Below are positions 28,951 through 33,814 of a stretch of DNA of 64,000 bases, in pieces. Under the pieces are notes generated by a model. The model saw only the letters and a list, made by a program, of their open reading frames with translations, made no database searches and was not told where the DNA came from. How positions within the stretch are numbered: position 1 is the first letter of the stretch; the number at the start of each line of letters is the position of its first letter. This stretch comes from Gammaproteobacteria bacterium (GTDB taxonomy: Bacteria; Pseudomonadota; Gammaproteobacteria; AKS1), in contig JALTKS010000118.1 in the NCBI GenBank assembly GCA_027006175.1, positions 1 to 64,000 on the forward strand, given 5' to 3'. The translations under genes were made by a program, and so were the position numbers.

Positions 28951-30933
28951 TTATAAAACTGATTCAACTGCTTTCACAACGTTTTCAACGGTGAAGCCAA
29001 ATTCTTTGAACAGTTCGCCAGCCGGTGCAGACTCACCGAAGTGGTCAATACCAACGACAGCATCAGCGTACTTGAACCATGCATCAGTCACTGCTGCTTC
29101 AACGGCAACCGTTGGAACACCCTTGATTAATACAGATTCTTTATAGGCATCGTCTTGTGCATCAAACAAATTGGTTGAAGGCATAGAAACAACACGGATT
29201 TTCTTGCCACTCATTGCTTCTGCTGCGCCCATTGCCAGTTCAACTTCTGAACCGGTACCGATGATGATTGCATCCGGTGCGCCATCACAATCTCTCAGGA
29301 TGTAACCGCCTTTTGCGATCTCGGCAATCTGTGCATCAGTACGTTGTTGATGTGCCAAACCTTGACGAGAGAAGATCAATGTAGAAGGACCTTCGCTACG
29401 TTCAATTGCTTGCTGCCAACATACCGCTGATTCAACCGCATCACATGGACGCCATACAGCCATGTTTGGAATCATGCGTAAGGTAGGAATTTGCTCGATA
29501 GGTTGGTGAGTTGGACCATCTTCACCCAGACCAATTGAATCATGTGTGAATACAAAGATGCTTTGAATTTTCATCAAGGCAGCCATACGTAAGGCATTAC
29601 GTGCGTATTCAGAGAACATCAGGAATGTTGCGCCAAATGGGATTAAACCACCGTGCAAAGAAATACCATTCATGATCGCTGACATACCAAATTCACGTAC
29701 ACCGTAGTTCAAGTAGTTAGCTTCTTCGTTGTTGATCATTGGTTTGTAACCAGACCATTCGGTCAGGTTTGAACAACCTAAATCAGCAGAACCACCAAAC
29801 ATTTCAGGCACCATTGGTGAGTAGGCTTCGATAGAGGCTAATGAGGCTTGACGTGTTGCCGGACTTTTTGCATCCGCATTAACCTGTGCAATGTAAGCAG
29901 CAGACTTTTCAGCCCAATCTGCAGGTAAATCACCTGCCATACGACGTTCAAATTCAGCGGCAAGTTCCGGGTAAGCAGATTTGTAAGCGGCGAATTTATC
30001 ATTCCACGCTGCTTCAGCTGCAGCACCTTTTTCTTTCGCATTCCAACCTGCATAAACATCTTCAGGTACTTCAAAAGGACCGTGATCCCAACCAAGTGCT
30101 GCTTTGGTTAAGTTGATTTCATCTTCACCTAATGGTGCACCGTGACAAGCGTGGCTACCGGCTTTGTTTGGCGAACCAAAACCAATGGTTGTTTTACAAC
30201 AAATCATTGTTGGTTTGTCCGTCATTGCTTTTGCTGTGTCGATAGCGCGTTGAATCGCTTCTGGATCGTGTCCATCTACGTCAGCAATAACGTGCCAGCC
30301 GTAAGATTCAAAACGCTTCGGAGTATCATCTGTAAACCAGCCTTCAACGTGACCATCGATAGAAATACCGTTGTCATCCCAGAAGGCAATTAACTTACCA
30401 AGACCTAAAGTACCGGCAAGTGAACAAGCTTCATGAGAAATACCTTCCATCAAACAACCATCACCTAAAAATACGAAGGTGTTGTGATCAACAATGTCGT
30501 GACCTTTCTGGTTAAATTGACCTGCTAATGCTTTTTCAGCAATCGCCATGCCCACGCCGTTAGTAATACCCTGACCTAGTGGACCGGTTGTTGTTTCAAC
30601 GCCTGGTGCATATCCGTATTCAGGGTGTCCCGGTGTTTTTGAATGCAACTGACGGAAGTTTTTCAGATCGTCGATCGTTAATTCGTAACCTGTCAGATGC
30701 AGAAGTGAGTAAATCAGCATCGAACCATGTCCATTTGATAAAATGAAACGATCGCGGTTAGCCCAATTTGGGTTAGCTGGGTTGTGGCTCATGTTGCTAT
30801 TCCACAGTACCTCGGCAATATCGGCCATTCCCATTGGTGCACCAGGATGTCCCGAATTCGCTTTCTGAACGGCATCCATACTTAATGCGCGAACAGCATT
30901 CGCAAGATTGCGACGGTTAGCATTTGCTGACAT
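28951..30933 (-). CDS. tkt: Transketolase
   Basis: A 660-aa thiamine diphosphate enzyme exchanging two-carbon units between sugar phosphates. Signatures: [19 protein letters not shown] at the N-terminus, ThDP motif [15 protein letters not shown] (near 154), catalytic [15 protein letters not shown] (near 467). The start follows AGAGGA. It begins the carbon-metabolism run and has a long, structured 5' leader with a candidate terminator hairpin, so it may be under RNA-level control. Confidence 0.97.
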
Positions 30934-30974
30934 AACAGAATCCTCTTTGAAAACTAAAAAATAATATAAAGGTT

Positions 30975-31012
30975 AAAAAAATTTTTTTGCGTGTTACTAC
31001 ATGACACACAAA
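30975..31012 (-). terminator. Candidate attenuator terminator before tkt
   Basis: On the minus strand TTTGTGTGT (31012-31004) pairs with ACACGCAAA (30994-30986) around a 9-nt loop. It is followed by AAAA and then seven T, about 41 nt before the tkt start. The four A between stem and T-tract make it imperfect as an intrinsic terminator. Confidence 0.45.
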
Positions 31013-31235
31013 TCGTAAATCGTTCATTTCCCCATCAAATGATGAGATAAAGCTAATCCAGTACCGATTGTTTCCAACGGACTCTGAATCTAATATAAAG
31101 CTTAAATTACGGGTACTCCCCTGCCCCCCGTGGGTCCAACGAAGAGCACTTTCTCGTAGGGGAGGCGTATTCTCTCTCACCTGCCGCTTATGAGCAATAC
31201 TCTACTGAGTATGATTATCAGCCCCATAACCCTAA
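31013..31235 (-). promoter_or_regulatory. Long structured 5' leader of tkt, unassigned RNA class
   Basis: Read on the minus strand. Helix A is CTCCCCT (31164-31158) with AGGGGAG (31122-31116). Helix B is ACGGG (31131-31127) with CCCGT (31113-31109). The order makes A and B interlock as an H-type pseudoknot, if both form. Inside A is a 6-bp hairpin ACGAGA/TCTTCGT (31157-31139). A 5' hairpin ATACTC/GAGTAT (31212-31197) and a 3' hairpin CCGTTG-GAAA-CAATCGG (31080-31064) flank it. I could not match this to a riboswitch or 6S RNA consensus from memory. A terminator-like hairpin follows, as in transcription-attenuating riboswitches. Confidence 0.5.
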
Positions 31236-31241
31236 TTCCTT

Positions 31242-31271
31242 ATATAACAATGACTTATAAATATTGGTCAA
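31242..31271 (-). promoter_or_regulatory. Predicted sigma-70 promoter for tkt leader
   Basis: Minus strand -35 TTGACC (31271-31266) and -10 TTATAT (31247-31242), spacer 18 bp. It would start transcription near 31235, giving tkt a leader of about 300 nt. Confidence 0.5.
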
Positions 31272-31372
31272 TATGGATATAAATAGATATGATGAATTAA
31301 ATCGCCAATTATGCTGATTTTACTCATTAAACCATCAAATACCGTGCTATCACTGTACAAAAACCATGAAAC

Positions 31373-31504
31373 GGCTTGGACAAGCCCAGATCTGCTGACT
31401 ACACTTTAATTCATAAACAGAACGCGAGCATTCATCTATCGTTTTAGGGGTAAAACGATGGTGATTCTAACTAAAACTACAAGCAATAGAATCAGAGTAA
31501 TATC
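31373..31504 (+). other. Upstream region of the PhnD-like gene with several hairpins
   Basis: The part of the 571-bp tkt/PhnD-like intergenic region nearest the plus-strand gene. It holds GGCTT-GGAC-AAGCC (near 31373-31386), a perfect 9-bp stem ATCGTTTTA-GGGG-TAAAACGAT at 31438-31459, and GATTCT/AGAATC flanking about 31463-31494. No coding potential was seen. The stems may regulate the downstream gene or be remnants of a repeat; function unknown. Confidence 0.4.
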
Positions 31505-32332
31505 ATGAAAAAACAATATTTATCAGGTGGTTATAAAATATCGACCCTGTTCGTTGTCAGCGCCATATTCTTGCTTATGCTGCTTAGCAATGCCGCTCAG
31601 GCAGCAACGTATACCTTTGTTGTGCAACCTATTTATCCACCAAATAAAACCATTGAAGCATTCACACCACTGACAAATTATTTATCTAAACAAACAGGCC
31701 ATACTTTCAAATTAGTGACTGCGGTTAACTTCCTGAGTTACTGGCAAAATATGAAAAAACCAGGGAAATATGACTTCATTCTGGATGCGGCTCATCTAAC
31801 CGACTACCGGCTAAAACGCATGAAATTCAAGGTCCTTGCCAAACGTGCAGATGCCGTGTCATATACTCTGGTAACAAATGAAAACACCGCCATTATTGAA
31901 CCTGAGGAGCTGATTGGGAAATCGCTCGCAACCATTGGTTCACCCAGTTTAGGTATGCTGCGATTGGAAGAAATGTTCCCAAACCCATTACGCCAACCCG
32001 TTATTATTGAAGTTGATAACTCACTCGATTCAATTAAGAAAGTGCTTGATGGCACAGCTCAGGCGGCGATTGTGCCAACGCCCATGGTGGGTGGTTTTCC
32101 AAACTTACTCACCATTACCACTACCGAGCAAGTACCCCATACCGCTGTTTCTGCTTCACCACGTGTGCCTGCGGATGTTCAGGTTGCTGTACGTAAAGCG
32201 CTGATTGAAGCAAGTAAAACAGACGCGGGTAAAAAAATGCTTGCTGACATTAACTTCCCTTCTTTTGAGAAAACCACCGCGGCAAGCTATGACGGTTTCG
32301 CCAGTTTATTAGAAGGTGTTTGGGGTTATTAA
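31505..32332 (+). CDS. Orphan PhnD-like periplasmic substrate-binding protein
   Basis: A 275-aa exported protein with a long signal peptide (about 1-33, ending AQAA). The mature domain matches phosphate/phosphite/phosphonate-type binding proteins: YTFVVQPIYPPNKTIEAFTPL, then YLSKQTGH.FKLVTA and YDFILDAAHLTDYRL. No permease or ATPase gene is adjacent, so it is an orphan binding protein; such proteins can serve sensor kinases or distant transporters. Ligand is unknown; the phosphonate label should not be taken literally. Confidence 0.82.
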   Translation: MKKQYLSGGYKISTLFVVSAIFLLMLLSNAAQAATYTFVVQPIYPPNKTIEAFTPLTNYLSKQTGHTFKLVTAVNFLSYWQNMKKPGKYDFILDAAHLTDYRLKRMKFKVLAKRADAVSYTLVTNENTAIIEPEELIGKSLATIGSPSLGMLRLEEMFPNPLRQPVIIEVDNSLDSIKKVLDGTAQAAIVPTPMVGGFPNLLTITTTEQVPHTAVSASPRVPADVQVAVRKALIEASKTDAGKKMLADINFPSFEKTTAASYDGFASLLEGVWGY

Positions 32333-32410
32333 AAAACTTTACACAATTTTACTTTTCCATTGTCATTTATCTTTGACATCTTTCCATTTGGCTCTATAAT
32401 CTCTGGTCAT

Positions 32411-32470
32411 ACAGCGCTGATTTGAATTCAGATTGCGGGCGCTTAATAAATACGGCTAAAGCGTGTGGAA
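32411..32470 (+). ncRNA. SAM-II-like riboswitch aptamer upstream of metK
   Basis: The sequence follows the SAM-II pattern as I recall it for the metX element: GCGC-TGATTT, ATTGC, second GCGC, AATAAAT, then GCTAAA. P1 pairs AGCGC (32413-32417) with GCGCT (32439-32443). The 3' GCTAAA (32455-32460) would form part of the pseudoknot that encloses SAM. The aptamer lies about 65 nt ahead of metK and is followed directly by a terminator. SAM-II is best known from alphaproteobacteria, so its presence here is notable. Confidence 0.85.
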
Positions 32471-32483
32471 CCAGATTTTAAAA

Positions 32484-33710: not shown

Positions 33711-33790
33711 CCTGCTAGCATGAGGGACGCTGCAGCGAGATCATCTCGCCAGGCTCGTGCTAGCAGTTCCAGAACAACCGCGCCCACCGA
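33711..33790 (+). ncRNA. S-adenosylhomocysteine (SAH) riboswitch
   Basis: P1 is a 9-bp stem CTGCTAGCA (33712-33720) with TGCTAGCAG (33758-33766). The conserved core reads GAGGGACGCTGC ... CGCCAGGCTCG, close to the SAH consensus GAGGAGCGCTGC...CCGCCAGGCTCG. The pseudoknot pairs GGG-A-CGC (33724-33730) with GCGCCC (33780-33785), followed by CACC. It lies 25 nt ahead of ahcY with GAGGT as ribosome site. SAH riboswitches turn expression on when SAH accumulates. Confidence 0.93.
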
Positions 33791-33814
33791 CTTTGAACCT
33801 GAAGTGAGGTAGAC

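Follow-up and report, generated by a model that had tools for sequence, protein, structure and literature searches.

A conserved promoter and a putative fast-evolving, structured leader upstream of the tkt-gap-pgk-pyk-fba cluster in a gammaproteobacterium

In a gammaproteobacterial genome (G000; 2.47 Mb, 119 contigs), the transketolase gene tkt heads a cluster that joins the pentose phosphate pathway and glycolysis. Here, we analysed the DNA upstream of this gene within a stretch of 64,000 nucleotides, hereafter called the window. On balance we lean towards reading the region as the 5' UTR of tkt-gap-pgk-pyk-fba, in which a conserved promoter is followed by a lineage-specific, structured and cis-acting leader, and not by a ligand-binding aptamer with a terminator. 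A sigma-70-type promoter at positions 31197-31169 would transcribe the leader from near 31162, and the leader would then influence the stability, translation or elongation of its own mRNA in cis; its sequence and fold probably turn over fast between families.

An earlier reading of the window, made from the sequence only, had proposed an undescribed regulatory RNA of the riboswitch type in the tkt leader. The part of this proposal that stands is a long leader outside all Rfam families, together with conserved structure in the leaders of relatives; the part that does not stand is the riboswitch reading for the window. It is plausible that the 5' UTR is structured, evolves fast and acts in cis, while a ligand-binding aptamer in this leader is not supported. 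For the Gammaproteobacteria as a class, the idea that tkt leaders hold an undescribed regulatory RNA is reasonable to follow. If the leader acted as a regulatory RNA in many members of this class, a control point would be missing from Rfam. For the window itself, our results are chiefly a correction: conservation now yields a prediction of the promoter and of the leader length, and a riboswitch has become unlikely.

Results

To delimit the leader, we relied on tkt upstream regions gathered from about 150 Gammaproteobacteria. In most of these regions, TTGCCn is separated by a 17-nt spacer from GAAAAT or GAGAAT, after which comes a GC-rich discriminator. A promoter pattern score of at least 15 was reached in 120 of the 147 regions compared to 5.0 expected from shuffles, a ratio that is optimistic, as the score had been adjusted by eye on the very sequences it was applied to and many of the sampled species are related. 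Judged from these sequences, the excess is nevertheless too large to be an artefact of the fitting. The window scores 16.0 and shows the sigma-70-type pattern, although both of its hexamers differ so much from the consensus used by a generic promoter scan that the scan did not list the site.

The conserved promoter places the predicted transcription start near 31162, which is about 7 nt past the -10 element with an uncertainty of a few bases, and therefore gives a leader of about 229 nt (Table 1). The sequence-only reading had assigned tkt a leader of 300 nt. A long leader indeed looks real, but it is shorter than stated, as those 300 nt take in the conserved promoter. A transcription start inside its proposed leader had been named in that reading as an outcome that would count against it, and the start predicted here falls within. 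The 5' strand of helix 1, the first helix of the proposed pseudoknot, lies on the predicted start.

Table 1 Features of the window in and around the tkt leader (strand as read in the window).
Feature	Position	Strand	Remarks
tkt, transketolase	28951..30933	-	start at 30933; identity confirmed by Pfam
gap, pgk, pyk, fba ORFs	downstream of tkt	same as tkt	named from translations
tkt Shine-Dalgarno AGAGGA	30941..30946	-	from sequence
A4 U7 tract after hairpin	30975..30985	-	UUUUUUUAACC present in G001 too
terminator-like hairpin UUUGUGUGU/ACACGCAAA, 9 bp, -8.4 kcal/mol	30986..31012	-	from folding
predicted tkt 5' leader, ~229 nt	30934..31162	-	inferred from conserved promoter
helix 2, 3' strand CCCGU	31109..31113	-	CCCAU in G001
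helix 1, 3' strand AGGGGAG	31116..31122	-	pairing out of register in G001
helix 2, 5' strand ACGGG	31127..31131	-	alternative partner 31147-31139 (nested fold); AUGGG in G001
helix 1, 5' strand CUCCCCU	31158..31164	-	on predicted transcription start
-10 element GAGAAT, then GC-rich discriminator	31169..31174	-	class-wide conservation
-35 element TTGCTC, tkt promoter	31192..31197	-	conserved across Gammaproteobacteria
SAM-II (SAM_alpha, RF00521) riboswitch match	32404-32479	+	upstream of metK; 32.0 bits, gathering score 36
SAH riboswitch (RF01057)	33716-33792	+	before ahcY ORF; 50.9 bits, above gathering score

The divergent neighbour of tkt encodes a phosphonate-binding-type periplasmic protein (31505-32332). 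Between the two divergent genes, on the far side of the tkt promoter at about 31290-31265, lies ATCATATCTATTTATAT...ATTGA, which the window has in common with its relative G001 and which is possibly a regulator site or a portion of the promoter of the divergent gene.

On average, tkt leaders of this class show more structure than expected. Leaders measure 100-330 nt in most lineages and 48-56 nt in the sampled Pseudomonas and Shewanella species. They fold better than shuffles with a mean z of -0.98 (103 leaders), and in clade alignments the consensus-fold z was -2.57 for leaders (21 sets) compared to -1.14 for upstream DNA and -1.23 for the tkt coding start (20 sets each). Three of the upstream control sets also fell below z -3; in one of these, an inverted repeat resembling a terminator can be seen. 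Short motifs are enriched as well: AGAATT occurs in 38 of 122 leaders (7.4 expected), ACAGAA in 22 of 122 (3.5 expected), and the ACAGAAUU element is likewise enriched among gammaproteobacterial tkt leaders; the leader of the window carries none of them. Of the 122 leaders, 18 contain a terminator-like hairpin, where 7.2 were expected. Clear ones among them, at the loci L067, L103 and L107, consist of GCCUC...GAGGC followed by U7 and lie 120-160 nt ahead of the start codon of tkt, so that attenuation is suggested for that lineage. Across tkt leaders in general, there was no enrichment of a stable 5'-terminal stem (0.521 vs 0.512 paired), and sequestration of the Shine-Dalgarno sequence was not found as a general feature. 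An invariant pairing of the 5' end with the Shine-Dalgarno sequence was set aside, as it never varies and lies partly before the predicted start. RNAalifold returned no structure on a 16-sequence MAFFT alignment because of misalignment, whereas an eight-sequence alignment and the covariance-model alignment gave one.

The strongest single case comes from a related family, f137 (loci L165-L193). In an alignment of eight of its leaders, a helix close to the Shine-Dalgarno sequence is paired in 92% of cells, and a covariance model extends the structure to 17 species, in which two helices (P1 and P3) covary. Both partners vary in eight of the 15 pairs, and the observed covariation score was not reached in any of 500 shuffles, figures to be read with the reservation that the 17-species alignment was fitted to the model and leans towards structure, and that related sequences can exceed such shuffles. 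The leaders of this family also carry a ACAGAAUU-like linker. The model (R1) recovers leaders of the family, with E-values as low as 1.8e-17 among those that were not part of it, while it gave no match to the window or to the tkt locus of G001 (L012); the Rfam scans placed the f137 leader RNA in no family. These alignments suggest that the covarying leader of f137 is the best-supported candidate RNA among tkt leaders, and it offers a concrete and testable one.

For the window itself, comparison within its own order was restricted by the small size of that order: four genomes were sampled and, besides the host, tkt could be found in G001 only. The structure signal in the window is weak. The consensus fold predicted by RNAalifold for the two leaders reached z -1.8, with 12 of 200 shuffles as good, and z -2.0 when repeated. 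Taken alone, the leader of the window is slightly more stable than its shuffles, with a z of -1.5 over 302 nt and of -1.0 over the 229 nt.

Such values leave considerable room for the rival explanation of a long but passive 5' UTR, in which selection in this genus acts on promoter and ribosome-binding site only and the helices merely follow from the high GC content of the stretch. We consider this a serious possibility, though not the favoured one. It is in line with the z of only -1.0 and with the identity between window and G001, which is no higher in the tkt leader (38%) than in the intergenic DNA upstream of the promoter (44%). Beyond G001, similarity of the window to other tkt upstream regions falls mostly on the promoter. 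The H-type pseudoknot of the sequence-only reading does not exceed local chance either: both helices (7 bp and 5 bp) exist and interlock as described, and such a GC-rich 7/5-bp pseudoknot is rare when all 302 nt are shuffled (0.3%), but shuffling the local GC-rich 79 nt gave a 7/5-bp pseudoknot in 6.7% of cases. Against a passive leader stand the consensus fold with G001, which is somewhat better than shuffles, and the clear conservation of leader structure in several other clades. Conservation in relatives was found in part, with folds kept in the tkt leaders of those clades and the pseudoknot of the window kept only partly in G001. Outside the window, the leader DNA gave only weak matches in the genus, which were discarded; the ones inspected, from G002, G003 and other parts of G000, lie in or at the edge of coding sequence.

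The second rival is the riboswitch or attenuator, in which a pseudoknotted aptamer near the 5' end would sense a sugar phosphate or thiamine diphosphate and control a terminator before the start codon. We regard it as very improbable. The interlocking helices exist, and helix 2 is kept in G001, where the homologous place reads CAUGGGG...CCCCAUG, through one compensatory pair (ACGGG/CCCGU to AUGGG/CCCAU). Helix 1, however, is out of register in G001, which offers CUCCGG/CCCGAG with one mismatch or CGGGUC/GACCCG instead (both read from the sequence), and its first strand sits on the predicted start. The consensus fold of the two leaders did not show the claimed helix pair. In addition, a nested fold competes with the pseudoknot, in which ACGGGGGGC pairs with GCUCUUCGU at a predicted -21.6 kcal/mol; helix 1 with its inner hairpin is predicted at -13.5 kcal/mol and helix 2 alone at -7.2 kcal/mol, to which any pseudoknot penalty still has to be added. 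The nested fold is accordingly predicted to be the more stable one. A pattern search of 369 genomes found the helix-2 motif in just four: G000 and G001, where it is next to tkt, and two others with three matches between them.

The second half of the riboswitch fares no better. Terminators do occur in the tkt leaders of other lineages, and the sequence-only reading correctly described a hairpin near the start codon of the window followed by A4T7. As a terminator, this hairpin is weak: four A's separate the stem from the U-tract, a terminator pattern scan found none on the tkt strand, and in G001 the U7 tract is present with no comparable hairpin before it. The Shine-Dalgarno region is paired less than in shuffles (0.46 vs 0.62), and neither a terminator nor Shine-Dalgarno sequestration was found that could serve as an expression platform in this leader. 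The proposed order of aptamer and terminator is therefore not supported for the window, as the pseudoknot is neither beyond local chance nor the fold predicted to be preferred and the terminator is weak and not conserved.

The lack of a match to a known class was borne out in Rfam. The region 30800-31520 gave no Rfam family match on either strand, be it at gathering or at permissive thresholds (E up to 10), which also led us to reject 6S RNA (RF00013), and no family matched the tkt leader in any of 20 tkt loci scanned. The absence of a match would suit a new riboswitch class, but no conserved aptamer-like core was found in relatives, unlike in the case of the two riboswitches nearby. The SAM-II match is directly followed by a strong intrinsic terminator hairpin (-17.5 kcal/mol; element through 32520), and G001 has both SAM-II and SAH at near-equal scores (31.1 and 49.8 bits), which shows that genuine riboswitches have been preserved well in the two genomes. 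A SAM_alpha riboswitch above the gathering score was also observed in another gammaproteobacterial tkt neighbourhood (L037, 832-908, minus strand).

Discussion

Our preferred reading of the window, a conserved promoter followed by a structured leader acting in cis, draws on a pattern that extends across the class. The sequence comparisons suggest that tkt leaders are under structural selection while changing fast between families. A more far-reaching version is rather speculative: tkt leaders may together form an undescribed cis-regulatory system, in which the promoter is conserved and the task is kept, while the fold is replaced from family to family, with P1/P3 and the ACAGAAUU-like linker in one case, terminators in another and a GC-rich pseudoknot or nested domain here. 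Among the literature searched, no publication describing such an RNA element upstream of tkt was found.

Comparison with known systems

The mRNA leader of E. coli ompA carries a 5' stem-loop and is an example of a structured leader that stabilises its message. What we propose for tkt would resemble it in that a highly expressed gene is preceded by a 5' UTR structure that acts in cis, and would differ from it in that a stable 5'-terminal stem is not enriched in tkt leaders. The SAM-II and SAH elements are another comparison, as they also precede metabolic genes in both G000 and G001 and lie only a few kilobases away from tkt; unlike the tkt leader, they are recognised by Rfam models and well kept in G001.

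The operon studied in Legionella pneumophila bears on a third rival, a protein-binding site (e.g. for CsrA/RsmA) that would control tkt translation or Rho-dependent termination. There, tkt-gap-pgk-pyk form one operon, an RpoD promoter upstream of tkt was mapped by dRNA-seq, and CsrA, which controls the operon, acts against Rho-dependent termination at the start of gap (PMC5338858). We consider such a site highly unlikely in the window: an AGGA is present inside the Shine-Dalgarno sequence (30944-30941), but by eye the leader has no other A(N)GGA, and the strongest site for CsrA in Legionella was located to the 5' region of gap, with the tkt transcript level unaffected (PMC5338858). The documented post-transcriptional control of that operon thus sits at the start of gap and not in the tkt leader, while the gene order tkt-gap-pgk-pyk and the promoter upstream of tkt are features that it shares with the window.
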